Shown: positions 1 through 43,179 of the stretch, in pieces | Numbering within the stretch: position 1 is the stretch's first letter | Layout: every line of letters begins with the position of its first letter | Virus record (IMG/VR): IMGVR_UViG_3300033148_006964 | Location: 1 to 64,000 of that record | DNA from: a virus | Length of the DNA: 64,000 nt | Reading direction: 5' to 3' (one strand) | Program-made: the position numbers and the translations under genes | Notes under the pieces: generated by a model | The model's input: the letters and a program-made list of their open reading frames with translations, nothing else | What the model was told of the DNA's origin: nothing | The model's database searches: none

Positions 1-157
1 TGTTAACCATCTTCTTAAACTTTTCTCCTCTGGCTACTGATGTGGTTGGGTAGAGGCGATAATTTTGTTCCCCTACTTCATAGTGTAAAAAAATAGCAGC
101 TGAAACAATACCATCGATATCATTATGAAATACGATGTGGTAAGTTTTTTCGTTCAT
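1..157 (-). CDS. DHH-family phosphoesterase, N-terminal part (cut by window edge)
   Basis: The gene reads leftwards from an ATG at 157 and is open to base 1, giving 52 residues. An AGGAG ribosome site lies at 165-169 on the minus strand. The peptide begins MNEKTYHIVFHNDIDGIVSA. The hydrophobic strand followed by H-N-D-I-D-G is the first metal-binding motif of DHH phosphoesterases (known family members include RecJ exonuclease, c-di-AMP and nanoRNA phosphodiesterases and related phage proteins). The catalytic DHH motif itself would lie outside the window, so the substrate cannot be named. A minus-strand promoter-like site lies about 45 bases upstream at 202-217. The alternative is another D-x-D Rossmann-like hydrolase, but the N-terminal pattern fits DHH well. 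Confidence 0.7.
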   Translation of the reverse strand, partial: MNEKTYHIVFHNDIDGIVSAAIFLHYEVGEQNYRLYPTTSVARGEKFKKMVN

Positions 158-201
158 TCGGTCAACTCCTTTTAGTATGGGGGTTTTAAATAAAACTTTC
201 T

Positions 202-217
202 CTATAGTAGTTATTAC
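202..217 (-). promoter_or_regulatory. Minus-strand promoter-like site A (GTAATAASTANWATRG family)
   Basis: Read on the minus strand this is GTAATAACTACTATAG. It is one of four near-identical 16-mers in the window (others at 38621-38636, 43164-43179 and 44528-44543), all on the minus strand and each just upstream of a minus-strand transcription unit. TACTAT would be the -10 hexamer. No -35 match is seen, but the GTAATAA next to the hexamer is conserved like an extended -10. It would drive the DHH gene. Confidence 0.55.
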
Positions 218-241
218 AAAAATTAATAAAAAATAACCACC

Positions 242-17490: not shown

Positions 17491-18072
17491 ATGCAATATA
17501 AAAAAGTAACAAACAATTTTGCATTTTATGAATTTAGACCAAGTGGCAGCCCAAAGAGTTGGATGCCAACTAGTAAATATCAAAAAAAAATGATTGTTAG
17601 TCTTGCAAAAAATCTTCAAATTGTAAGAGATAAGATATCAAAAGGTTATATGAAAATTACTAATGGCGTTAGAGTTGAAGAGGATTATAATCGTTTAATA
17701 AAAAATGGTTATAAACCATCTAAAACAAGCGATCATTATTTTGGTCTTGCAATTCCGTTAACTCTTAATAGTTATAAATATAAAAAATATGGGCCTACTT
17801 ATAATTTTACTATGGGAGCTGTGGATATAGTACCTTATGGTATAACTGTTCTTAATTTATTTTCAATAGCAATAAATTTATGTGAAAACGATGAATGTGA
17901 TTTTGGACAAATTATTTATGAAAAAAATCCTAAAACTAAAGCTGAATGGATACATTTTGGCGGTTCTCCAAAACCATTTTTATCAGAGGAAATAATAAAC
18001 TTTTTAAATAGAAATAAATATTTACAATCACTTGATGGTGGTAAAACGTATAAAACTTTTAATCTGGCATAA
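17491..18072 (+). CDS. M15-type peptidase, probable endolysin, 193 aa
   Basis: The motifs fit zinc-dependent L-Ala-D-Glu or D-Ala-D-Ala peptidases of the M15 family, which cut peptidoglycan cross-links. SDHYFGLA (S80-D81-H82) matches the S-x-H-x-x-G-x-A motif, D112 lies in GAVDIVP, and H155 in EWIHFGG. Zinc ligands would be H82, D112 and H155. The spacing between the first His and the Asp is enlarged by about 23 residues compared with the usual compact motif, so an insertion loop is present. There is no signal peptide. It follows a membrane protein by 4 bases, which suggests a lysis cassette, although M15 domains are also found in tail-associated lysins. Confidence 0.7.
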   Translation: MQYKKVTNNFAFYEFRPSGSPKSWMPTSKYQKKMIVSLAKNLQIVRDKISKGYMKITNGVRVEEDYNRLIKNGYKPSKTSDHYFGLAIPLTLNSYKYKKYGPTYNFTMGAVDIVPYGITVLNLFSIAINLCENDECDFGQIIYEKNPKTKAEWIHFGGSPKPFLSEEIINFLNRNKYLQSLDGGKTYKTFNLA

Positions 18073-18078
18073 TATATT

Positions 18079-18687
18079 ATGAGATTTTCTAGTGTAGATG
18101 TTATAAAGACAGAAAGAAACTTTTTTTATATTGAATGGGATATGACTCCTGAATCATTAGAGTTTATTGATGATTATAATTTTATGATATATTGGAGCTT
18201 TGATCCAGTTTCAGGGTTTATACCTATATTAGATGAAGATGGTAACCCAGTTGTAATTGATGGTGCGGTTGGCCCATTATCTTATACACACGAAGTAAAA
18301 CAATATGATTTTAATAAAGATAGGTATTATAAAGTTAGAGCATTATTGAAACATTTATATTCAAGTTCTTCTAGTGAAAGTTCTAATTCATCAAGTTCTT
18401 CAAGCTTAAATTCTGAATCTTCAAGTTCTACAGAATCTTCAAGCTCTTTAAATTCTTCAAGCTCTAGCAATTCAAGTTCAAGCTCTTCAAGTTTAAATTC
18501 TTCTTCTTCAAGTTCTTCGAGTTTAAACTCTTCAAGCTCCAGCTCTCAAAGTTCAAGCAGCTCAAACTCTTCAAGCTCTTCAAGCTTAAATTCTTCAAGT
18601 TCCAGCTCTCATAGTTCAAGCTCTTTAAATTCTTCTAGCTCTTCTAGTTCTTCTAGTTCTGAAAGTTCTAGCAGTTCGTTTCCATAA
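18079..18687 (+). CDS. Virion protein with beta domain and Ser-rich tail, 202 aa
   Basis: Residues 1-94 form a compact, beta-rich domain of unknown family (SVDVIKTERNFFYIEWDMTP near the start) that resembles a fibronectin-like or receptor-binding domain in pattern only. Residues 95-200 are a Ser-rich tract broken by Asn, Leu, Glu, Gln and His, ending in FP. The previous gene ends 6 bases upstream. No good ribosome site is seen, so it may depend on coupling. It lies next to the long Ser-rich gene and close to the modification cassette. Confidence 0.65.
   Translation: MRFSSVDVIKTERNFFYIEWDMTPESLEFIDDYNFMIYWSFDPVSGFIPILDEDGNPVVIDGAVGPLSYTHEVKQYDFNKDRYYKVRALLKHLYSSSSSESSNSSSSSSLNSESSSSTESSSSLNSSSSSNSSSSSSSLNSSSSSSSSLNSSSSSSQSSSSSNSSSSSSLNSSSSSSHSSSSLNSSSSSSSSSSESSSSSFP
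18361..18678 (+). repeat. In-frame Ser-rich minisatellite
   Basis: Repeats of AGTTCT, TCAAGC and AATTCT type encode the tail of the 202-aa protein. Units such as S-S-S-S-S-L-N recur at irregular spacing. Codon use alternates AGT/AGC with TCT/TCA, as in the other Ser tracts. Confidence 0.9.
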
Positions 18688-24059: not shown

Positions 24060-25006
24060 AAAAAGATAATTGGTTTAAAGATTATCATGAAATTCCAGAA
24101 TTAGGAATTAAAGGATTAAGATCCATAAAGAATAGGATTAAATATTATCATATTAATGATTTTAAAAAGGCTTCGGTATTAGATATTGGATGTAATATGG
24201 GGCAGATGTCGTTTCAAGCAGAAAAATGGGGCGCGTCTCAAGTAATAGGAGTTGAATATGATAGGGTTGCCTGGAAAAAGGCAATACTTAATAAAAAACA
24301 ATTAAAATCATCCGTCATCTTTACTCTTGATGATATTGATAATCCTCTTTTTTGGAGAGGTATTAATCCTAGTGATGTAGTTTTATTTTTGGCTGTCTTT
24401 GGAACTAAAGAATTAAAAGATAGATTTTCAATTCTTAATAAAGCGTGTTTAAAAACTAAGAATGTAATGTATTTTGAAGGCCATAGAAAGGCCAAAACAA
24501 ATGTTTATGTAAAAAATATTCTTCAATATACTGATTTTAGTCAAATTGAGTTTTTAGGAACGGTAGGAAAAAAACGAGCATTTCTTAGATGTTCGCGTGA
24601 AACCCTTACGCCTAAAGGCTGTATTGAAAAAATATTAAAACTAAAAGGTCGTTATAATAAAATAGCTATAATAGGAAAAGGAGATGTTGGTAAGACCTAT
24701 ATACGAAAACGTTTAGGTGATTGTGGCTCTCATTTAGTCGTAGACGATAGAAGAGTATGGGATAATGAAAAATTGAGCTTAGAAAAATTAAGTTTAGAAA
24801 AGTTAAACTCTACTAAAAAAATAATATTATTTGATTATAGATCGCTTTTATATGTTGATGATTTTGAGGTAGTTTTTTTTCTAACGCCTAATGAAAAGCT
24901 TTTGCAAAGAGCTCAACGGGCCAGCACAAGGTCCAGAGTTAATGAATTGGAATTTAAATATGATAAAGTAGAACGGTTTTATACTGTAATAACCAGAGGA
25001 AGATAA
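24056..25006 (+). CDS. SAM methyltransferase fused to a P-loop-like domain, 316 aa
   Basis: Residues 40-60 contain VLDIGCNMGQ, the SAM-binding motif I of class I methyltransferases, and VIGVEYD follows as the acidic motif II. After about residue 200 a second region begins with IAIIGKGDVGKT (GKGDVGKT at 207-214), which matches a P-loop, then VDDRRVW and FFLTPNEKLL, suggesting a small kinase-like or nucleotide-binding domain. Start overlaps the preceding stop (ATGA). The two-domain arrangement in a glycan cassette suggests modification of a sugar or precursor, but substrate is not known. Confidence 0.65.
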   Translation: MKKDNWFKDYHEIPELGIKGLRSIKNRIKYYHINDFKKASVLDIGCNMGQMSFQAEKWGASQVIGVEYDRVAWKKAILNKKQLKSSVIFTLDDIDNPLFWRGINPSDVVLFLAVFGTKELKDRFSILNKACLKTKNVMYFEGHRKAKTNVYVKNILQYTDFSQIEFLGTVGKKRAFLRCSRETLTPKGCIEKILKLKGRYNKIAIIGKGDVGKTYIRKRLGDCGSHLVVDDRRVWDNEKLSLEKLSLEKLNSTKKIILFDYRSLLYVDDFEVVFFLTPNEKLLQRAQRASTRSRVNELEFKYDKVERFYTVITRGR

Positions 25007-25007
25007 C

Positions 25008-26402
25008 ATGAAAGATTTTACTATAGTTACAGCTTGTAGCAAAGATTATATAGATAAGCTTAAATGGTGTATGCCAACCTGGACTATTAAACCACAGTTT
25101 AAAAATAAAAAATTAATAATTTTTTATATAGATGATATGAATGAATCTGATCTTTATTTTGCTAAAAATTATTTTTCTAATGTTAAATTTGTTAAGTGGC
25201 AAATGGAAAAATTTGACAGCAAAAGGGAATTAGTATTGTCGTCTTTTGTACTTGGTGTTAATCATATTGAAACTGAGTATTATGTAAAAATAGATGGCGA
25301 TAGTTTTTTTATTAATGATAAAGATGTTTTAGAGAATGATGATTTTAATTATGATTTAGTAGCGCATAGATGGGGGTATACAAAACCTGGATATTGGATA
25401 GCAGAGCTTAATAATTTTTATTATAATAAGAATGATAAAGTAGATAAAAATATACATATATTCAGACAATCTAGAATAGCCAGTTTTTTCTGTTTGCATA
25501 AAACCGAATTTGTTAAGAAAGTAGTATCATTTTTTAATAATAGATTGCCTGTTCCTAGTCATGATACAACTTTGTGGTATTATGCTAATGAGATGCCCGA
25601 TAGGACATGGAAGGCAAAAAATGTTAAGCGTTATGGTGTTACTAATAAATCTAGGTTTAGAAGTTTAAAAGAATCTATACGTTCCTTGCCTAGTGCTAAT
25701 AACCCATATTTAAATGATATATTATTAAAAAAAATTAGATTAAAAATATCAGATGCATGTAAATTTAAATGTAATAAATGTAATAGTTTTTGTGGGATGA
25801 TGCCATCAAATAATTTTATGGGTGTAGATATTTTATTTAATTTTATAGATGATTCCATACAAAATAATAAAAAATGGAAAAAAATAATTATAGATGGCGG
25901 AGATCCTTTATGTCATCCAAATTTACCAACTATATTTAATCTATTAAAAATGTATAAAGATAAATTTAATAAATGTAAATTTGAATTTAATGTAGTAGAT
26001 AATAGTTTAGTTCAAATAGTTAAAAAAACTATCCCTAATTGGATTACTTTAAATGTTTCTAATTGTAGGAATAATAAAATAAAACGAGCCATAATGAATG
26101 CTCCATGTGATAATAATGAAAAAAATGTTAGATCATGCTCTTCTCCATGGAATGATGGAATAGTATTTAATAATAATGGATATTTTTTATGTAACGTTGG
26201 TGCATCTATAGCACGTATTTTAAATTTGGATATTGGTATAAAATATTTACAAGATGTAGATGCTGATTCATTATTAGAACAAAAAAAAGAATTATGTACT
26301 CTTTGTGGGTATAGTGATTGTAAAACAAAACGAGATGGTGATTATATAAGTGATTCGTGGATAAAAATTATTAAAGAACATTCTACAAAGAAGGCCGTAT
26401 GA
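25008..26402 (+). CDS. Glycosyltransferase-like domain fused to a radical-SAM domain, 464 aa
   Basis: Residues 1-210 look like a GT-A transferase: FTIVTACSKDYIDKLKWCMP at the start and YYVKIDGDSF (D-x-D type, 91-100), then an aromatic segment with WGYTKPGYW. Residues 243-460 form a radical-SAM domain: C251-x3-C255-x2-C258 binds the iron-sulfur cluster, and IDGGDPLCHPNL (295-306) is the GGE-like SAM-binding motif with Asp for Glu. C-terminal cysteines (CSSPW, CNVG, CTLCGYSDCK) resemble an auxiliary SPASM-like cluster region. It starts one base after the previous stop and overlaps the next gene by ATGA. The fusion implies linked sugar transfer and radical chemistry on one product. Confidence 0.65.
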   Translation: MKDFTIVTACSKDYIDKLKWCMPTWTIKPQFKNKKLIIFYIDDMNESDLYFAKNYFSNVKFVKWQMEKFDSKRELVLSSFVLGVNHIETEYYVKIDGDSFFINDKDVLENDDFNYDLVAHRWGYTKPGYWIAELNNFYYNKNDKVDKNIHIFRQSRIASFFCLHKTEFVKKVVSFFNNRLPVPSHDTTLWYYANEMPDRTWKAKNVKRYGVTNKSRFRSLKESIRSLPSANNPYLNDILLKKIRLKISDACKFKCNKCNSFCGMMPSNNFMGVDILFNFIDDSIQNNKKWKKIIIDGGDPLCHPNLPTIFNLLKMYKDKFNKCKFEFNVVDNSLVQIVKKTIPNWITLNVSNCRNNKIKRAIMNAPCDNNEKNVRSCSSPWNDGIVFNNNGYFLCNVGASIARILNLDIGIKYLQDVDADSLLEQKKELCTLCGYSDCKTKRDGDYISDSWIKIIKEHSTKKAV

Positions 26403-28781: not shown

Positions 28782-29972
28782 ATGAAACTAGTCTATAAAT
28801 CATATAAGTTTAGATTAAATCCAAATGCCAAGGAAGAAATTCTAATTGCGAAGCATTTTGGATCATGTAGGTTTATATTTAATAGATATCTAAATTCTAG
28901 AAAAGAGAGCTATTTAACAAAAAAGAAATCGATTAATTATTATGATAATGCGAAAGATTTAACATTGTTAAAGAAAAATAAAGATTTTGAATGGCTTAAA
29001 GAAATAAACTCTCAAAGTTTACAATCATCATTAAGAAATTTAGATACGGCATATAATAGGTTTTTTAGAAATCAAGCTAGGTTTCCTAAATTCAAAAGTA
29101 AATATAATAAACAAAGCTTTACAATCCCCCAATCAGTATATATCAAAAATAATAAATTATATATACCTAAGTTTAAAGATGGTATTAAAATAAATACTCA
29201 TAGAAAGATCAATGGGAATATTTGTTTTGCCACAATATCAAAGTCAGCAACAGGCAAATACTATACAAGTATTACTTGTGAAGTAAAACATAAACCATTT
29301 AAAAAAACAAAATCAAGGGTTGGTATTGATACAGGAATAAAAAATTTAGCGATCCTTTCCGATGGAACTATATATGAAAATATTAAAACACTTAAACCTA
29401 ATCTTAAAAAATTAAAATATGAACAAAGGCAACTATCAAAGAAGAAAAAAGGTGGCTCATTAAGGGCAAAACAGAAAATAAGGCTTGCAAAAATATATGA
29501 AAGGGTATCTAATACCAGAAAGGACTATTTACATAAAGTCAGTACAGAGATTGTCAAAAACCACGATATAATCTGTATTGAAGATTTATCTGTAAAAAAT
29601 ATGATGAAAAATCATCATTTAGCTCAAGCGTTTTCTGACGTCGCATTAGGTATCTTTTATACAATGCTTAATTATAAGTGTGATTGGAATAATAAAACAA
29701 TTGTAAAAATTGATAAATTTTTTCCAAGCAGTAAAACGTGTAATATTTGTAATTTTATTAAGCAGGATTTATCTTTAAAAGATAGAGAGTGGACTTGCCC
29801 TAGTTGTAATACAAAGCATGATAGAGATATAAATGCAAGTATTAATATAAGAAATCAAGGTCTTAAAATATTGTCTGGTTTAGGAACTAAGTCGGACATT
29901 AAACAAAAACAGGTAGAGGCGTTCTCATTAGAGGAGTCTACGAAACCTGAAGTCTCAGTACCTTGTGCATGA
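28782..29972 (+). CDS. tnpB: TnpB RNA-guided nuclease, 396 aa, intact
   Basis: This is a typical complete TnpB/OrfB. The RuvC triad residues are D183 (GIDTGIKNLA), E267 (CIEDLS) and D349 (HDRDINASIN). The zinc ribbon has C320, C323, C339 and C342. In known systems TnpB with an omega RNA made from the 3' end of the element cleaves DNA beside a short target motif. The guide would be read from sequence just past the right end (from about 29983). No Shine-Dalgarno is present because the promoter -10 lies 9 bases from the ATG. The intact motifs suggest an active nuclease. Confidence 0.92.
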   Translation: MKLVYKSYKFRLNPNAKEEILIAKHFGSCRFIFNRYLNSRKESYLTKKKSINYYDNAKDLTLLKKNKDFEWLKEINSQSLQSSLRNLDTAYNRFFRNQARFPKFKSKYNKQSFTIPQSVYIKNNKLYIPKFKDGIKINTHRKINGNICFATISKSATGKYYTSITCEVKHKPFKKTKSRVGIDTGIKNLAILSDGTIYENIKTLKPNLKKLKYEQRQLSKKKKGGSLRAKQKIRLAKIYERVSNTRKDYLHKVSTEIVKNHDIICIEDLSVKNMMKNHHLAQAFSDVALGIFYTMLNYKCDWNNKTIVKIDKFFPSSKTCNICNFIKQDLSLKDREWTCPSCNTKHDRDINASINIRNQGLKILSGLGTKSDIKQKQVEAFSLEESTKPEVSVPCA

Positions 29973-35939: not shown

Positions 35940-37163
35940 TTATTAAATAATACTTGATATTTTAATTTCCTTATATTATATTATTCACTGTATGAATATT
36001 ATAACTTATAATGTAAAAATTCAGGGGAAATATGAAGATTCTCTTATTAAGACATTAAGTCTTCAAAGAGATTTAGTTAATTTTTGCTCTAAGCTTCATT
36101 TTGGTGCTAAAAAAAATTCTATTGTTGACCTTCATAATAAAGCATATAAAAATGCCAGATTAAAATACCCAGATGCTTTTAGCCAACTTGTAATTCGAGC
36201 TGAACAGGAAACATTAGGATCTTATCGCACGGCAAAATCAAATAAACATAACCTTAAACAACCTATTAATAAGCATAACTTATCATGTAGACTTGATAAA
36301 AGGGCTTATTCCAAGTTTACAAAACAGTCAATAAGAATATCAACTATCGATGGTAGAAAAGAGTTTGATCTTAAATTATATCCAAAAATAGACAATTTAT
36401 TTGATAGATATACTACAGCTGATCCTCTTGTGTTTTGTAAAAATGATAAGTTATGGTTGTCCGTTAGTTTTAACATACCAGAACAGGTCATTGCAGAAAA
36501 TAAACTTGCCGTTGGTGTAGATCTTGGGAAGCGTAATTTAGCTGTAACATCTGATGGTAAATTAATCTCTGGAAGAGAATTTAATAAACACAAGCGTAGA
36601 ATTCGTTATAATAAAAGAATGTTGCAAAGCGTAGGTTCTAAATCTTCAAAACATAAACTCAGAAAAATAAGAAGAAAAGAATATAATTTTTCAAAGAATT
36701 ATACGCATCATGTTGCTAATGAAATATTAGATACAGGTGCTAATATTATTGTATTAGAAGATTTAACAAAAATCAAAAAGAAAAAAAATAAATATCAAAA
36801 TAAAAATAACATTTCTCAAGTTCCGTTTTATTTGCTTCGTTCTATATTGGAATATAAGGCACCTCTTTTAAATAAGAAGGTAACGGTTATAAATCCAAAG
36901 AATACAAGTAAAAATGATTATAGGGGTATTAAGCCTGGTATAAGAAAAGGTGGAGAATATAAAACCAGTGATGGTTTAATTTTTCACGCAGATCTTAATG
37001 CCGCAAATAATATAGCCTTAAAATCAAAACACCCTTCTCTACTTGTTGATCCAATTAATTCGTTTAGAAGGCAGGGTGCGGTCAAACACCCAATAGTAGA
37101 CTCTCAAATTAGCATTGCTAATGGAGAGGTCTACAAGCCCACGGCTTTAGCTGTTGGCGTTTG
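35940..37163 (+). mobile_element. TnpB-only element 2
   Basis: A second tnpB gene with no tnpA, inserted between the tail tube terminator and the dNTP-hydrolase-like gene. The right end has GCCCACGGC-TTTA-GCTGTTGGC (one mismatch, about 37137-37158) followed by GTTTGAC, the usual hairpin near the end of such elements. The left limit is not determined. The right end forms the 3' end of the convergent gene. Confidence 0.55.
35954..35982 (+). promoter_or_regulatory. Promoter of tnpB 2, TTGATA-17-TATATT
   Basis: TTGATA (35954-35959), 17 bases, then TATATT (35977-35982). The ATG starts 9 bases after the -10, exactly as in tnpB 1, so this message is also predicted leaderless. Confidence 0.55.
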
Positions 37164-37164
37164 A
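35992..37164 (+). CDS. TnpB-like protein lacking the zinc-ribbon cysteines, 390 aa
   Basis: The RuvC residues are present: D177 (VGVDLGKRNLAV), E256 (VLEDLT) and D334 (HADLNAANNI). The region that normally reads T-S-x-x-C-x-x-C-G ... C-x-x-C is here NPKNTSKNDYRGIKPGIRKG with no cysteine, so the zinc ribbon is lost. The N-terminal domain is only distantly like that of tnpB 1, so this is a separate lineage and not a duplication. It may be an active variant, a nuclease that no longer needs zinc, or a repurposed DNA-binding protein. Message leaderless as described for its promoter. The C-terminal codons overlap the convergent gene by 34 bases. Confidence 0.8.
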   Translation: MNIITYNVKIQGKYEDSLIKTLSLQRDLVNFCSKLHFGAKKNSIVDLHNKAYKNARLKYPDAFSQLVIRAEQETLGSYRTAKSNKHNLKQPINKHNLSCRLDKRAYSKFTKQSIRISTIDGRKEFDLKLYPKIDNLFDRYTTADPLVFCKNDKLWLSVSFNIPEQVIAENKLAVGVDLGKRNLAVTSDGKLISGREFNKHKRRIRYNKRMLQSVGSKSSKHKLRKIRRKEYNFSKNYTHHVANEILDTGANIIVLEDLTKIKKKKNKYQNKNNISQVPFYLLRSILEYKAPLLNKKVTVINPKNTSKNDYRGIKPGIRKGGEYKTSDGLIFHADLNAANNIALKSKHPSLLVDPINSFRRQGAVKHPIVDSQISIANGEVYKPTALAVGV

Positions 37165-37754
37165 CCCCACCACATTAAAGATATAACGTTCCATAAAGCT
37201 TGATATAAATGAAGGAATCCAGATTCAGAGTCATATATATATTTAGTACGCATACATTTAAAATGTCTGTAAAATGCCCCATGATATCTTTTAGGATCGA
37301 CTAACATCCAATTATCATCATCATATTTAATAGCGCCATGAGCGTATACATCAGCAAGAATATTAAGAACATCAGGATCAATAAGATCCCATCTTTCTAT
37401 GTCTGATGAATATGATAATAGATCTTCAGTTATATAATCTTCTTTTTTTAATAAGAAACATATAAGAAAAGCAATAACAGCAAGATTTTCACAGTTAGTT
37501 CCTGGAATAAATCTATGTCCTGTGCTCCAATTACGCATTAATGACATTATAGTGTTATATATTATTGCTTCTTTTTTTTTATCTAAAAGATTAAGTTTGT
37601 GTAACGATCCACCAGGGAGAAATTCATTTGCAGCAAGTACTACCCTGCTTATCTGAGCCATCGGAAGAAGATCCCATCTGGCTTTTTTGCTATCAAACTT
37701 TATGCCTTGTTTACTAAAATCTGCGTTTTTATCAGTACTTTGTTTATTGTTCAT
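37131..37754 (-). CDS. dATP/dGTP diphosphohydrolase-like protein, 207 aa
   Basis: Two related segments are present. KFDSKKARWDLLP (residues 19-31) and RWDLIDPDVLNILADVY (121-137) are both the start of the dATP/dGTP-diphosphohydrolase domain seen in phage nucleotide enzymes, and only the second continues with GAIKYDDDNW (140-149) and ESGFLHLYQALWN (177-189). Such proteins remove pyrophosphate from purine dNTPs. The C-terminal nine or so residues (TPTAKAVGL) are encoded by the right end of the neighbouring TnpB element. AAGGA 8 bases before the ATG is weak. It lies downstream of the RNA terminator. Confidence 0.65.
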   Translation of the reverse strand: MNNKQSTDKNADFSKQGIKFDSKKARWDLLPMAQISRVVLAANEFLPGGSLHKLNLLDKKKEAIIYNTIMSLMRNWSTGHRFIPGTNCENLAVIAFLICFLLKKEDYITEDLLSYSSDIERWDLIDPDVLNILADVYAHGAIKYDDDNWMLVDPKRYHGAFYRHFKCMRTKYIYDSESGFLHLYQALWNVISLMWWGQTPTAKAVGL

Positions 37755-37776
37755 AAAAAAATCCTTGTTTTAAATT

Positions 37777-37808
37777 AAAAAAAGAGGGCATGCATTACAC
37801 ACGCCCTC
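37777..37808 (-). terminator. Rho-independent terminator of the noncoding RNA
   Basis: On the minus strand GAGGGC and GCCCTC close a 13-base loop and are followed by seven T. There is no reading frame directly upstream on the minus strand, so its substrate is the structured RNA described at 37777-38616. Confidence 0.85.
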
Positions 37809-38616
37809 CCACACTCTAACTAAAGATCGATCGCGGTTTTCTTTGCGCAAACTGACGTTAGCGTAGAAGACTGCAGCTCTTCAGATTAAGATCTCAAGAA
37901 GCTTTCGAATCCGCGATCCCTTATTTATAAGGGATATTAGTTTCGTGGCGAAACACCACGCTTTAAACTTAGAGTATATTTTTTTGTTCTCTTACTTAGA
38001 TGGATATGTTTCGCCACCCAGAATAGGTAATACTAGGAGAAGATCCCGCGTAATAACCGTGGGACGTTACGAAATTCCTGGAGGCGACCGGTTCCGCCGT
38101 GTCATCCATCTGTTGTAGAAACATACTCTGAGCCTGAATTTATTAAGTATTCGAATTTATTCGAAAATACGTGTAAATGTGCTGTTTAAACAGCGAAGCT
38201 TTAAACAGACAGGCGATAAGAGTATGCATTAAAGATATGACGAGACGTCATACCATTGCAATTTCTAAGAGAAAAATTTATTATCTTTTTTTTAGCTGTT
38301 CTCAAACTAGATTGAGCGAGTTTGTAACCTTAACTTAGTCACTGAAGATCCAGGATATACATCGACGGCGCCGCCCATAGAATAAATATTATATTATATT
38401 ATACAACAAAACTAGCATTCACTAAAAGGGTCTGTCAGCGACTTAGCAGATATGGTACATAGATGCTAATAAAGCGTTTGACAGAATTTTGCGCAAGCCC
38501 AAATTCAAAGAATTTGGATGTCTGAGCAAAATACTTTTAAGAGTGAATATAGAATACAGATGGTGAAACACCACCTATCTAATGACTTTGAGAAAACACA
38601 CTATTTTAATATAAAA
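37777..38616 (-). ncRNA. Candidate large structured noncoding RNA, about 840 nt
   Basis: No reading frame covers this region. A promoter-like site (38621-38636) lies at one end and a T-run terminator at the other, both for the minus strand. Many self-complementary segments are present. Subdomain 1 (38417-38548) folds as a three-way junction: ATTCACT/AGTGAAT plus AAAAG/CTTTT; TTTTGC/GCAAAA with inner CCAAATTC/GAATTTGG; TCTGTCA/TGACAGA with inner TTAGCA/TGCTAA. Subdomain 2 has closing helices 38122-38129/38219-38226, 37998-38005/38104-38111 and 37829-37836/37911-37918, and hairpins at 37916-37935, 37944-37960, about 38043-38063 and about 38237-38253. Size and phage context recall ornate RNAs such as GOLLD and ROOL; class membership is not tested. 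An AT-rich stretch at 38388-38404 could divide it into two RNAs. Confidence 0.7.
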
Positions 38617-38620
38617 CCTT

Positions 38621-38636
38621 CTATTATACTTATTAC
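38621..38636 (-). promoter_or_regulatory. Minus-strand promoter-like site B
   Basis: Minus-strand GTAATAAGTATAATAG, with a perfect TATAAT as -10. Transcription would begin near 38616 and run into the structured RNA. The upstream CTTTGT is shared with site C. Confidence 0.6.
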
Positions 38637-38658
38637 ACAAAGTTTATAAAAAATAACA

Positions 38659-41600
38659 TTATGAAGCAGGTAATTGGCATGAATCTCCATCACAATACTT
38701 TTCACCAATAGCTTGATTTATAAAATTTGTATAATTAGGTTTTTTCAAATTTTTTGACATTTTTATATAAGTAGCTTCATCTATTTCTTCATACGGAGCT
38801 TGTTTATATCCGTGATCATTGTATGGAAGCATACTTACTGATTTTAATCTAGAGTCAAATATTGATAAAGCATTTGCTATATCTCTGACTTCATCTTTCT
38901 TAAATGTAACTGTTATAGAAACTTGATTATCACACCAGTATTTTTGGTAATCTGAAGCGTTTAAAAATTGTTCCCACATTGTTACTTCTTTTTTCCCTTT
39001 AATAAAATATTTGGTTTTTACTGGAAATTCTACAACCATCATAGTATCCTCCTTGCCATAGCAAGGAACAACATTATATCCAGCTTCTACCATAATATTT
39101 ACTAAAGGCGAACTCTTAGCGACTATAATTCTTCTTATATAATATTCTGAATGAGCATAATGAATACCTGGCGATACTCCTGGCAATAACGATACTGAGC
39201 CAGAAGGTTTTACTGAGGTAATCTTAATGCTTCTTGGGATACATAACCAATCAGAATATATACCATCGAGTTCTCTTAAATATTTATAACCTTGTTGAGA
39301 CCATTCTAATACTGTTTGCCTACCGTGCCTGATAAAAGCATCGATAATTCCAGATTGCGAAGTACCAATCCTTCTATTACGAAGTAATACTGCGTTTGTA
39401 GGTTCCCAGTGAGTTGGTAACAATGTTACAGTCTTTGCATATAAATATGCATATTTAAGTGTTAGTCGATACTCATCATATGTCGCATGCAAAGAAGGGA
39501 AAGTTTCAACTAAATTGCATAATTCATATGATTCTAAAGTTTGTTCACTTTGATGTAAGTATATACCAGTACACGAGTTACAAGAATCATCTAACAATTT
39601 ACTTGAGATAACTCCAAGAGTATGGTGGCTATCTACAGTTCCGTTATATACATCTTCATGTCCATCAAATTCTACAGAAACAACTTTATGGTTAGCTATA
39701 GCGGCTAATTCTTTAAGTTGTTTATACGATGTTAGTGCAAATTTATTACCCGTAGACCCAGTTTGTCTTATTCTATAAGGAACACTATTTTGCTTGCACC
39801 CTTCCATCCATTCTAATTTAAAAGGATCTCTTTTTAATTTAAATTTAAGATCATTGTAAATTTTTATTTGAGATGCAAGTTTAGCCTTTTGTGTTAATTC
39901 AAATTTATCTTTTTGAGCTTGTTTTCTTTTTTTTGATCCATGCCCTGTATTAAGAAAAATTAAATTACATTTTTGACTACAAAAAGCGGTATTTCTAAGA
40001 CGATACGGAACATCATATTCTACTTTGCATTGATCGCACGTTCTAGTTATTATACATTTACCAACTTTATTATATTTAGCTTTTAATCCAGTAGATATGG
40101 CTTTTTCAAAGTATTCTTTTTGTACGCCTTTATGCCATTTTTTTAAACTTTCTCCTTTAAACTGAGATCTCCATTCTTCAGAATCCCAATATTTTTTCAT
40201 TATAATTTTTTGTTTTTCCATCCTATCTATAGTCTTATTGCCTATTTTTCTTTTAGTATCTTTAGAATGTTGTTTTCCATACATAGGATTTGATTCACCA
40301 GAACTATGAAATGAAATGTGTTCACTTTGAGGAATTGCCTCTAAGTTATTAATTAAATCATTTTTTTTATTTTTATCAATATGATGAATATGAACCTTCT
40401 TAGGTATTTTTTTATTAGAATAAGCTTCAAATATTCTTCTTGATTGAATATCTAAAATCCAATTCTCTTTACCAGGAGTGGTTTCTACATATCGTCGATC
40501 TCTTTTTACATAAGCTCTAAATGGCATTAAAGAATCTCCTGCTTGTAGCTCATAACATAACGCTATGTACCCGTCGCGCCTAATAAATTTATGGTCTTCT
40601 GTAACCCTAACACAACTTCCATCATCTAAAGTCACTTTATATACTGGTACCTTTTCACCAGTTTTATGAAATTGTCTCATATATGATATTGTTGATTTTC
40701 CATTTTTATCAAGACTATAAACAGGAACATCATTATCTTCATCAACTAGTTGTTTTATTGGTACAGCGTTTCTACCATCAGCTACGGCAATTAGTGTCTC
40801 ACCAACTACACAGCAGGGGTTACATCCGACTGCCTTATAGTCAAGATCATTTTGTGGATCTACCATACGGCTATATTTTTTTGCATTATCAAGCCAAAAT
40901 AAACCTGGTTCACCATTAACAGCTATTTTTTTAGCGATATCCGTATAGTCTTGTCCAACCTCTGCAAAAACACTATTATTTGAAGCCCATCTCCAGTTTT
41001 TTAATTCTTTAGGAAATAGCTTATAATCCTTCATATTAATAAACTGTTCATCGTTAGGATCGCCAAGTGCAATTAATGCAGTTCTTCTAACGTTTCCAGA
41101 TACAACACATTTTCCTATCATAGCGCAAATGTCAACTATAATAGTTGATGTTATTTTTTGGTCTATATGTGTTATTAACATTTTAGTTAACATATTTACC
41201 ATTTGTTTTAAAGGTCCTGAACCACTAGCCGTACCTCCAAAGCCTTTAATTGGAGCTCCTTCAGGACGTATTATTGAATAATCAAATTCAGGTATTTCAG
41301 ATCCAGTAAAAAAACCATTGAGTACAATACTCATGGTTTCAACCCAACCTTCTCTTGTGTCTGGAACTATAGCCGCCGTTTTAACAAAAGCTGGTTGTTT
41401 AATAATTATCTCACCAGCACCTTTAGTGTCAAATCCTACACCAACACCTAACATTGACATATCCATAAGAAAACGAAAAGGCCCAACAGGGTCTAATGCA
41501 AGATTTTTACTTGATACATACGAGCAATTTCCTGTAAGAATATTATCAGCTAAAGCAAATTTACCTTCATTTTTTACTGTAACACAAAATACTTCTTCAT

Positions 41601-42957
41601 ATCTATTTGTAGGAGTTACAGAATTTACAGTCCAATAGTTTTCTCTTTCTGTAGGCATTTTATCTAAAAAAGATTTTTTATGCTTATCCCTTAAAAAGAA
41701 ATCACTAGTTAAAAATTTTGATATAAAGACAACACTATGTATAGTATGTTCTCTATTAGTAAGATTTGATATTCGTTTACAACTACGTATTCTATTAGAT
41801 CCAATACCAAGTTTATAACAAACATCTCTTACAAATTTTAACGATTTTTTATTGCTACTATGTAATATTGAAGATCCGTTTGATACAGATCCGTCAGCAG
41901 CAAAATATCCTATTAGCCATCCTAATAAATAAGAACTATTTTCATGAATATCAGGTAATCTTTTATAATAATTTGGTAGATTTTTTATTATAGTTTTTGT
42001 CTTTTTCTCTTCAATATCTTTTTTATTGAAATAATTAGACAATTTCATTTTTTCTCCAAATAATTCTAATCGATTTGAATGGCGTTCTGTTTCAACTGAT
42101 GTTCCATCTCCGTAACATATTCCATGCATAATTCCTATTGAAGATGGTTTTAAGTTTGAAGAATTTAAACAGTTTTGACCAAAGACACATTGTAATTTAT
42201 GTTTATTTGGTCTAAGGTCTTTTGTTAAAAATTCTACATATTTAAAATTTCTATATTTAACTCTTCTATCTATACAAAACCACCTATGGTCTTTTGTTGT
42301 AAAGATTGTTTTTTTTACACCACATCTAGTTAAAATTAATTCATATAACTGTTGTTTTCCAAAACTATTAATTGGAGCTTTTACCCACTTACCATTATTT
42401 GTAAGGATGGTTTGTTGGGTGTCTTTACAATCTCCTAGTTTTTTTACACCTTCGCTAGTTATAAACTCAGTATTATATTCAAAACAATTATTTAAACATG
42501 CTGCTCCTACTTTATTAACGTGCTCAGTGTTTGACATCCATATGCCTCTACCTGGAGGAAGGAACTTCATATTAAATATTAAATCATACATGATCTTTGC
42601 TGATGCTTGAGCTTTACCGTTATACCATGGAACTCTATGAGAAAAACAATGTCGTTTTTGTATTGTAAAGCAACCTTCCACAACACGTCTAACAGTTTCA
42701 AACCATTTTTCTTTTTTTGTTTTTCCATATTCATCTTCATATGTTCTTGAGTAAGTCCTCATATAAGTAAATTCACCCAGAGGCCCCCAAGGTACTTTTT
42801 TCTTGGCATAACCTTGCACAAATTCTTCACTTAAATAAAAAGGTATAAATCTTGATGAGGTTTCTTCTTGTACAAAAAAACCACTATTTGACTTTAAAAC
42901 TGAACCATGCAAGTTGTCAGCCAAAATTTCCTCCTCAGTTTTTGATATTATATCCAT
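38659..42957 (-). CDS. nrdJ: Adenosylcobalamin-dependent ribonucleotide reductase (class II, RTPR-type) with two inteins, 1432 aa
   Basis: The extein matches monomeric B12-dependent reductase: PPGRGIWMSNTEHV, LMDMSMLGVGVGFDTKG, SGNVRRTA, IKITSVKPSGSVSLLPGVSPG and a C-terminal CDGDSC Cys pair for re-reduction. Removing residues 158-477 and 716-1136 leaves a 691-residue enzyme. After splicing, the active site reads C715-S1137-E1138...C1147. In the known enzyme these correspond to the thiyl-radical Cys408, Glu410 and redox Cys419, with identical spacing (Cys to Cys 11). C478 would be the partner redox Cys119. The enzyme makes deoxynucleotides without oxygen, needing B12 from the host. Start overlaps the upstream 62-aa gene by 10 bases. 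Confidence 0.92.
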   Translation of the reverse strand: MDIISKTEEEILADNLHGSVLKSNSGFFVQEETSSRFIPFYLSEEFVQGYAKKKVPWGPLGEFTYMRTYSRTYEDEYGKTKKEKWFETVRRVVEGCFTIQKRHCFSHRVPWYNGKAQASAKIMYDLIFNMKFLPPGRGIWMSNTEHVNKVGAACLNNCFEYNTEFITSEGVKKLGDCKDTQQTILTNNGKWVKAPINSFGKQQLYELILTRCGVKKTIFTTKDHRWFCIDRRVKYRNFKYVEFLTKDLRPNKHKLQCVFGQNCLNSSNLKPSSIGIMHGICYGDGTSVETERHSNRLELFGEKMKLSNYFNKKDIEEKKTKTIIKNLPNYYKRLPDIHENSSYLLGWLIGYFAADGSVSNGSSILHSSNKKSLKFVRDVCYKLGIGSNRIRSCKRISNLTNREHTIHSVVFISKFLTSDFFLRDKHKKSFLDKMPTERENYWTVNSVTPTNRYEEVFCVTVKNEGKFALADNILTGNCSYVSSKNLALDPVGPFRFLMDMSMLGVGVGFDTKGAGEIIIKQPAFVKTAAIVPDTREGWVETMSIVLNGFFTGSEIPEFDYSIIRPEGAPIKGFGGTASGSGPLKQMVNMLTKMLITHIDQKITSTIIVDICAMIGKCVVSGNVRRTALIALGDPNDEQFINMKDYKLFPKELKNWRWASNNSVFAEVGQDYTDIAKKIAVNGEPGLFWLDNAKKYSRMVDPQNDLDYKAVGCNPCCVVGETLIAVADGRNAVPIKQLVDEDNDVPVYSLDKNGKSTISYMRQFHKTGEKVPVYKVTLDDGSCVRVTEDHKFIRRDGYIALCYELQAGDSLMPFRAYVKRDRRYVETTPGKENWILDIQSRRIFEAYSNKKIPKKVHIHHIDKNKKNDLINNLEAIPQSEHISFHSSGESNPMYGKQHSKDTKRKIGNKTIDRMEKQKIIMKKYWDSEEWRSQFKGESLKKWHKGVQKEYFEKAISTGLKAKYNKVGKCIITRTCDQCKVEYDVPYRLRNTAFCSQKCNLIFLNTGHGSKKRKQAQKDKFELTQKAKLASQIKIYNDLKFKLKRDPFKLEWMEGCKQNSVPYRIRQTGSTGNKFALTSYKQLKELAAIANHKVVSVEFDGHEDVYNGTVDSHHTLGVISSKLLDDSCNSCTGIYLHQSEQTLESYELCNLVETFPSLHATYDEYRLTLKYAYLYAKTVTLLPTHWEPTNAVLLRNRRIGTSQSGIIDAFIRHGRQTVLEWSQQGYKYLRELDGIYSDWLCIPRSIKITSVKPSGSVSLLPGVSPGIHYAHSEYYIRRIIVAKSSPLVNIMVEAGYNVVPCYGKEDTMMVVEFPVKTKYFIKGKKEVTMWEQFLNASDYQKYWCDNQVSITVTFKKDEVRDIANALSIFDSRLKSVSMLPYNDHGYKQAPYEEIDEATYIKMSKNLKKPNYTNFINQAIGEKYCDGDSCQLPAS
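39550..40812 (-). other. Intein 2 of nrdJ with HNH homing endonuclease (421 aa)
   Basis: Protein residues 716-1136. It begins CVVGETLIAVADG (block A), has VTEDHKF (block B, T-x-x-H), an HNH endonuclease HIHHIDKNKKNDLINNLEA (about 856-874) with NPMYGKQHSKDTKRKIG-like NUMOD segments and a CxxC...CxxxC zinc-type cluster, and ends EDVYNGTVDSHHTLGVI (block F) then GIYLHQ before S1137. A terminal Gln instead of Asn is known in some inteins. The boundary is set by the spacing of the restored active site, so it is well supported. Confidence 0.85.
41527..42486 (-). other. Intein 1 of nrdJ with LAGLIDADG homing endonuclease (320 aa)
   Basis: Protein residues 158-477. It starts CFEYNTEFITSEGVKKLGD, has TTKDHRW as the block B His motif and two LAGLIDADG-type motifs, IMHGICYGDGTS (about 276-287) and LLGWLIGYFAADGSV (344-358). 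It ends VTVKNEGKFALADNILTGN followed by C478. The intein interrupts just before the Cys that acts in the redox pair, so the host protein is inactive until spliced. Confidence 0.88.
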
Positions 42958-43136: not shown

Positions 43137-43163
43137 CTTATCTCCTTTATATAAATAACTATT

Positions 43164-43179
43164 CCATAATAGTTATTAC
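43164..43179 (-). promoter_or_regulatory. Minus-strand promoter-like site C, in front of the nrdJ unit
   Basis: Minus-strand GTAATAACTATTATGG, with TATTAT as -10 and CTTTGTGTAATAA preceding as in site B. It would start a message of the 62-aa gene and nrdJ. Confidence 0.6.

Follow-up and report, generated by a model that had tools for sequence, protein, structure and literature searches.

Retrons are known mainly as bacterial anti-phage systems, in which one reverse transcriptase (RT) serves one adjacent template, and their msd stems generally contain mismatches or wobbles. GOLLD and ROOL are large structured non-coding RNAs known from phages or prophages. In retrons the priming G is located at the end of the outer (a1) stem or directly 3' of it, the template is removed by host RNase H, and in Ec86 the region Y of the RT binds an 8-bp stem with a UUU loop (PMC6868368). 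Retron-Nex1 (Ne160) comprises several msr-msd repeats without an RT within a kilobase, and these repeats appear to be duplications of one element (PMC6868368). Here, we describe a predicted minus-strand RNA (38620-37777) of a large phage, which quite likely carries retron-type template units that are used in trans by the phage's own RT.

The DNA analysed (the window) comprises bases 1-64000 of a virus record of 180,926 bases (G000), which encodes the terminase, tail sheath, baseplate J, and sigma factor of a myophage. Several structural proteins of this phage (12676-13518, 18079-18687, 18704-22327, and 32195-34981) contain long low-complexity tracts that are rich in serine (SSSSS with E, N, Q, L). 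A DHH phosphoesterase gene continues in frame across both record ends (window 1-157 joined to 180926), and therefore the genome is circular or circularly permuted. The record is gene-dense, and the 904 bases 37755-38658 are the largest ORF-free gap between confident genes in the record region examined. The longest ORFs within the gap are 42-57 aa, so that the lack of coding potential claimed in an earlier note on this DNA is borne out. The same note had placed the region between nrdJ and a dNTP-hydrolase gene in a "replication block", which is a fair label given the two neighbours (Table 1). The nrdJ gene itself apparently contains two inteins, of which the first type has LAGLIDADG and the other HNH/NUMOD3 domains.

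Table 1. Features of the folded RNA locus, its neighbours, and the RT operon. Positions refer to the window unless the record is named.
Feature	Position	Strand	Basis or remark
Promoter of the DHH-RT-RNase HI operon	184-237	-	84% identical to the RNA promoter
DHH phosphoesterase gene	1-157, continuing 180926-179980 of the record	-	5' end in the window
Retron-type RT gene	178926-180020 of the record, outside the window	-	follows the DHH gene
RNase HI gene	178429-178917 of the record, outside the window	-	follows the RT gene
nrdJ	38659-42957	-	flanks the folded RNA region
Promoter of the RNA, GTTATTTTTTATAAACTTTGTGTAATAAGTATAAT	38623-38657	-	-35/-10-like site at 38650-38623; recurrence at other operons
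Unit B, probably a diverged larger unit, ~600 nt	37985-38598	-	weak P1, P2-like hairpin, 500-nt variable domain
P2-like hairpin of unit B, GGTGGTGTTTCACC	38562-38575	-	UUU loop, G-C closed
Three-way junction in the variable domain of unit B	38417-38548	-	MFE structure
Unit A, complete retron msr-msd-like unit, ~170 nt (169 nt)	37810-37978	-	descriptor score 26; anchor test
5' arm of P1 of unit A, UAUACUCUAA, equivalent of retron a1	37969-37978	-	fold, covariation
Invariant G directly after P1 of unit A, putative priming (branching) guanosine	37968	-	role by retron analogy (PMC6868368)
P2 hairpin of unit A, CGUGGUGUUUCGCCACG, UUU loop	37944-37960	-	counterpart of the msr stem-loop to which region Y of the retron RT binds; compared with Ec86 (PMC6868368)
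Variable multi-hairpin domain of unit A, putative msd template	37831-37943	-	fold
Conserved box of unit A directly 5' of P1', UCGAUCUUUAG, putative start of reverse transcription	37820-37830	-	motif comparison
3' arm of P1 of unit A, UUAGAGUGUG, equivalent of retron a2	37810-37819	-	fold, covariation
Intrinsic terminator of the RNA, GGAGGGCGTGTGTAATGCATGCCCTCTTTTTTT	37777-37809	-	at 37810-37782(-), 13-bp stem then T run
dATP/dGTP diphosphohydrolase gene	37131-37754	-	other flank of the folded RNA region

The promoter-like site and the T-run terminator, which the earlier note had seen at the two ends of the region, are both present. That the promoter is more than a mere consensus match is indicated by the recurrence of the surrounding 54 nt at 184-237(-) and by the presence of its two-part motif ahead of other operons. 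Its core GTAATAANTANNATRGA is also found upstream of other minus-strand operons, and promoters of this type are common to the DHH-RT-RNase HI operon, the nrdJ operon (43163-43179, minus strand), and a unit of the related phage record G017 (126045-126320). As the DHH gene is in frame across the record ends, the copy at 184-237(-) is the promoter of the DHH-RT-RNase HI operon. In related phages, several operons are preceded by a phage-specific promoter motif consisting of GTTATTTTT, a spacer of ~10-15 nt, and GTAATAACTATNATRGA. The dense folding that had been described for the region is reflected in an MFE of the minus strand of -249.6 kcal/mol compared to -199.1 +/- 8.1 kcal/mol for 20 dinucleotide shuffles (z = -6.2). 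However, the plus strand folds equally well (z = -7.2), and thus the folding energy alone does not choose the strand. The RNA was assigned to the minus strand, in agreement with the earlier proposal, because the promoter and the terminator are found on it, the genes run in its direction, and the conserved motifs read in order along it.

Based on its size, its folding, its location in a phage, and its non-coding nature, the region had been taken for a relative of GOLLD or ROOL or for one large ornate RNA of a new class. The Rfam gathering scan of the window yielded no match at all, be it to GOLLD, ROOL, HEARO, OLE, raiA, or a group I/II intron, and the relaxed scan (E<=5) of 37700-38700 as well as the gathering and relaxed scans of the other unit loci resulted in nothing credible. 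Skipping-rope RNA was also considered and is not matched in the relaxed scans. In contrast to one conserved fold of 600-850 nt, the locus and its relatives are built from repeated, modular units of 170-600 nt with a retron-type core. Kinship with GOLLD or ROOL, or a new class of that kind, is therefore largely refuted and very improbable. The part of the earlier interpretation that stands is a discrete structured minus-strand RNA outside Rfam, whose units show covariation.

Related phages were identified by their major capsid proteins, which are 70-82% identical, and almost the complete sequence of eight large records was read. Searches via the diphosphohydrolase did not find any relatives and those via the C-terminus of nrdJ only four distant loci. 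Sequence homologs of the RNA beyond promoter and chance matches were found neither in the INPHARED phages nor by nhmmer with the whole RNA in the related records, and plasmids contain only chance matches to unit A. When the non-coding gaps were ranked by fold energy, G010 114113-115123, 104049-104719 of the phage's own genome, and G017 63278-64399 were far stronger than the RNA locus. Reading these gaps revealed motifs that the units have in common, in RNA sense the P1 stem, then AAG, a hairpin formed around GUUUC, a long hairpin that varies, the box UCWAUYUUUAG (also written UCNAN..UUUAG), and the P1 partner (P1'). A first descriptor of this order detected 22 units in the real compared to 4 in the reversed sequence, and a scored descriptor detected 29 units in 1.58 Mb but none in the reversed sequence and 0-1 per dinucleotide shuffle. 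Unit A has a score of 26, the highest score in 60 shuffles of its genome being 20.5. The phage's own genome contains five units, all on the minus strand (37809-37978, 104288-104524, 104539-104718, 119085-119254, and 123888-124059), and a sixth unit with a shortened box was found in the 104 kb array by reading the sequence. There are at least five clear templates at four loci in this phage. A pattern scan for P1-linker-P2 across IMG/VR revealed real units only in this phage clade; the other matches listed did not pass the unit test and are apparently due to chance or coding sequence. The descriptor did not detect a unit in the distant RT-bearing phages G033 and G036, whose RTs are 39-46% identical, and in G032.

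Unit B is probably a diverged second unit. Its P1 is degenerate and weak (38590-38598 pairs with 37985-37991), and its 3' box is degenerate too (CATCTAAGTA). It starts with UUCUCAAAG followed by a hairpin with a UUU loop, as does the G017 unit 126045-126320, and its 5' end (TTTTCTCAAAG...GGTGTTTCACC) resembles this unit as well as a stretch of G010 at the corresponding locus. The three-way junction, which the earlier note had highlighted, exists in the MFE structure but belongs to this less typical unit and lies outside the diagnostic unit A.

The descriptor requires P1, and P1 was therefore tested separately on anchors defined by the P2 hairpin and the 3' box only. There are 27 such anchors in the real and a single one in the reversed sequence. 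The mean pairing of P1 at the anchors is 8.0 nt compared to 4.75 nt if the partners are swapped among the units, and P1 is followed by a G in 24 of the 27 anchors and in all 20 aligned core units. In these 20 core units, ten of the 13 core pairs have changed on both sides in a compensatory way, 99.6% of the cells are paired, and the covariation score is 0.80 compared to 0.24 with shuffled letters and at most 0.16 with slid partners. Because the core units were selected partly by pairing, the weight rests on the sliding control and the anchor test. Covariation, for which the earlier note had proposed a test, is thus present in the units of relatives. The orthologous units of G010, G017, and G028 are nearly identical in P1, P2, and the box. 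In contrast, their long hairpins are almost wholly different in sequence but have nevertheless stayed long and near-perfect.

The long stems contain few G-U pairs and fold equally on both strands, with no strand asymmetry in energy or G-U content. This suggested selection on a DNA copy and prompted the test for a retron. Near-perfect Watson-Crick palindromes that fold equally on either strand and contain few G-U pairs could also be expected from an element acting at the DNA level. Such an element might form single-stranded or cruciform hairpins that serve replication, recombination, or packaging, or it might be mobile and non-autonomous, and the RNA would then be incidental. The location of the arrays among recombination and replication genes would agree with such an element. 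However, all units of any genome share one strand, which is the gene strand, and the window locus has a dedicated promoter and terminator. In addition, the motif order matches msr-msd, a retron-type RT is present in every relative, and the few wobbles would also be explained by selection on an msDNA product. We therefore regard a DNA-level element as quite improbable.

Because of the msr-msd-like anatomy and the few G-U pairs in the stems, an RT was predicted to be encoded in these phages. The prediction was stated together with the search, for which the records were chosen by their capsid and terminase genes and not by their units. All ten related records, including fragments of 32-85 kb, contain exactly one RVT_1. 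The RT matches NCBIfam retron_St85_RT with 206.9 bits (4e-61), which is below the cut-off of 235, and PADLOC RT_XIII (3e-62). The nearest solved structures are those of the Ec86 RT (E=1e-35), and nearly all matches are named retron RTs. The NAxxH (N95 A96 H99) and YADD motifs are invariant in nine RTs, while region Y starts with ICG, VCG, or TCG and never with VTG in these nine. A diversity-generating retroelement was considered for this RT and set aside because it matches retron-type families and is flanked by RNase HI and DHH genes. The RT gene lies between a DHH phosphoesterase and an RNase HI gene in the nine records examined. The DHH and RNase HI domains were Pfam-scored in three proteins and assigned by evident similarity in the remaining ones; the match of the RNase HI in the RT operon is 9e-32. 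The RT gene is 140 kb away from the window RNA on the record and about 40 kb around the circle, and in 21 phage RT loci there are no units within 10 kb of the RT.

Some further structured elements were noted around RT genes. Just 3' of the RNase HI gene there is a second structured non-coding region (G000:C1 177747-178149, G002 17669-18109, G007 24661-25329, and G010 92137-92773), which has the motif CCCCGACCCCA and strong hairpins in common among the phages and does not contain the unit motifs. In a 210 kb phage record whose RT is 29% identical, a unit-like element is found about 2 kb 3' of the retron-type RT (L323 12986-13275). It has a P1 (TTAACTATA-G), a GTTTC hairpin, and a CUUUAG box, and may be a cis version, although it is statistically insecure. 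The descriptor also matches just upstream of a bacterial RT in an Anaerolineae contig (L404 5407-5534), and this match with its long GGCAACCCGG...CCGGGTTGCC arms in a TTAGCC context looks like an ordinary retron ncRNA.

The closest known systems are Retron-Eco1 (Ec86) and the St85-like retrons, which likewise have a closing stem ending at a G, a G-C closed hairpin with a UUU loop, and a long hairpin downstream. The msr stem-loop of Ec86 (ATGTTGTTTCGGCAT) and that of one phage unit (ATGGTGTTTCGCCAT) are alike at 13 of 15 positions and differ at two; the Ec86 transcript, which holds GGATGTTGTTTCGGCATCC, was confirmed with 100% in 48 E. coli genomes. The NAxxH and YADD motifs of the phage RT are also those of the Ec86/St85-like RTs. 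In the units P1 runs up to an invariant A-G, and as in an a1/a2-type stem it ends immediately 5' of the G, which by analogy would prime the reaction. As expected for an msr with one to three hairpins including a UUU-loop stem, P2 with its UUU loop is present in nearly all units. Most units contain a near-perfect long hairpin like an msd, that of unit A being shorter and branched. However, there is no single contiguous msr-msd-RT cassette because the units lie elsewhere than the RT. The phage system further differs from the Ec86/St85-like retrons in having several templates per RT with the RT far from them, an RT operon that includes RNase HI and DHH genes, and a large phage as carrier, and a known retron effector was not recognised. 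Priming would take place in an AAG or GAG context, with any base following, instead of in TAGC or its listed variants. The long stems with few G-U pairs are unlike the usual retron msd stems, and region Y has (I/V)CG, or also TCG, instead of VTG, although deviations from VTG are also known for two validated retron RTs (PMC6868368). With the Rfam msr model RF00170, no record scores above the gathering threshold of 52 bits (best match 15.1 bits); the best match of this model in G016 (14.0 bits, E 0.9) coincides with the msr of a unit.

Like Retron-Nex1, the phages have repeated msr-msd-type units without a nearby RT. Unlike Retron-Nex1, the variable domains are wholly different, there is synteny over several phage lineages, and each genome has one RT. 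Retron-type RTs are also carried by the small Pseudomonas phages PfAC01 and PfAC04 (12 kb phage records), with 26% identity over 59% of the RT. We were not able to find literature on phage-encoded retron arrays in a search that mostly covered sources other than subscription papers and preprints.

Most units are arranged in tandem at a conserved replication locus, which also contains recombination genes. The arrays have an RDF-like (Gp3) gene on one side and small-protein and exonuclease genes on the other. Arrays of two to four detected units are present in seven lineages (G000, G010, G011, G014/G016, G017, G020, and G025). The second place is that of the window RNA, where the tail-tube gene converges with the diphosphohydrolase side. 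There, G017 has one unit with a terminator directly after it (123640-123809) and another with a promoter of the RNA type before it (126045-126320). In the window's phage the terminator is found only ~22 nt ahead of the start codon of the diphosphohydrolase gene, and G011 has a structured region directly upstream of the homologous gene. Therefore, it could be possible that the folded RNA and its terminator are a cis-acting leader or attenuator controlling this gene. However, units are also found elsewhere, mostly between the RDF-like gene and the exonuclease operon, and those of G017 are in the equivalent convergence region without an adjoining diphosphohydrolase gene. Tandem repetition and a freely replaced variable domain are also unfit for a sensor, and we consider a leader unlikely.

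Two TnpB-like (OrfB_IS605 / Cas12f1-like) genes are encoded in the window (28782-29972 and 35992-37164), and a third one outside it (G000 138076-139179) is 66% identical to G017 124685-125797. One of these genes (35992-37164) is only 0.6 kb from the RNA and another is near the units in G017, as could be expected if the RNA were a guide of the TnpB-like nucleases. However, a TnpB guide RNA would normally be expected to overlap with the 3' end of its tnpB gene. The tnpB genes are also encoded by the other strand, and there is no TnpB gene near the array at locus I, so that a guide RNA is hardly probable.

The anatomy of the units, their family, covariation, and synteny, the presence and type of the RT, and the shared promoter are established computationally. 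Several points speak against the retron reading: no unit adjoins the RT, RF00170 stays below its cut-off, the AAG of the priming context and the (I/V)CG of region Y deviate from the usual TAGC and VTG, the stems have few G-U pairs, G033 and G036 are without units, and unit B is degenerate. Because of the missing cis linkage, the several templates, the AAG, the (I/V)CG, the own RNase HI and DHH genes, and the missing effector, we classify the system as retron-type, acting in trans, and not as a standard retron. Probably, one retron-type RT together with RNase HI and the DHH protein copies many dispersed or arrayed templates in trans, resulting in a fast-diverging repertoire of DNA hairpins during infection. 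We infer that msDNA is produced, with priming at 37968 and a start at the box, and that the one RT uses all units.

The RNA would be made from a phage promoter of the kind found at the RT operon, and P1 would close the unit and present the invariant G. With the UUU-loop hairpin held by its C-terminal region, the RT would start a 2'-5'-linked cDNA from the invariant G at the UUUAG box and then copy the long hairpin. The RNase HI of the RT operon would remove the template and the DHH phosphoesterase may trim the product, so that a hairpin msDNA would remain. One RT should make a set of different msDNAs in this way, mainly from the array among the recombination and replication genes. A speculative and weakly supported idea concerning their use is that the hairpins, made in the lytic phase, serve as ligands of or decoys for DNA-binding proteins of host defence or repair, or are used in phage replication. 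This is suggested by the arrays being located among recombination genes, by the phage promoter, and by the fast turnover of the hairpins.

In contrast to the common view of retrons as mainly bacterial anti-phage systems, it appears here that large phages of one lineage possess retron machinery of their own, with many templates at conserved genomic positions. If this is true, a class of large folded non-coding regions in these phages would be explained, and there would be a natural RT for many trans templates, useful for the production of single-stranded DNA in cells. The phages would make sets of hairpin DNA during infection, perhaps blunting host defences or helping replication, and the retron machinery would serve the virus instead of opposing it.
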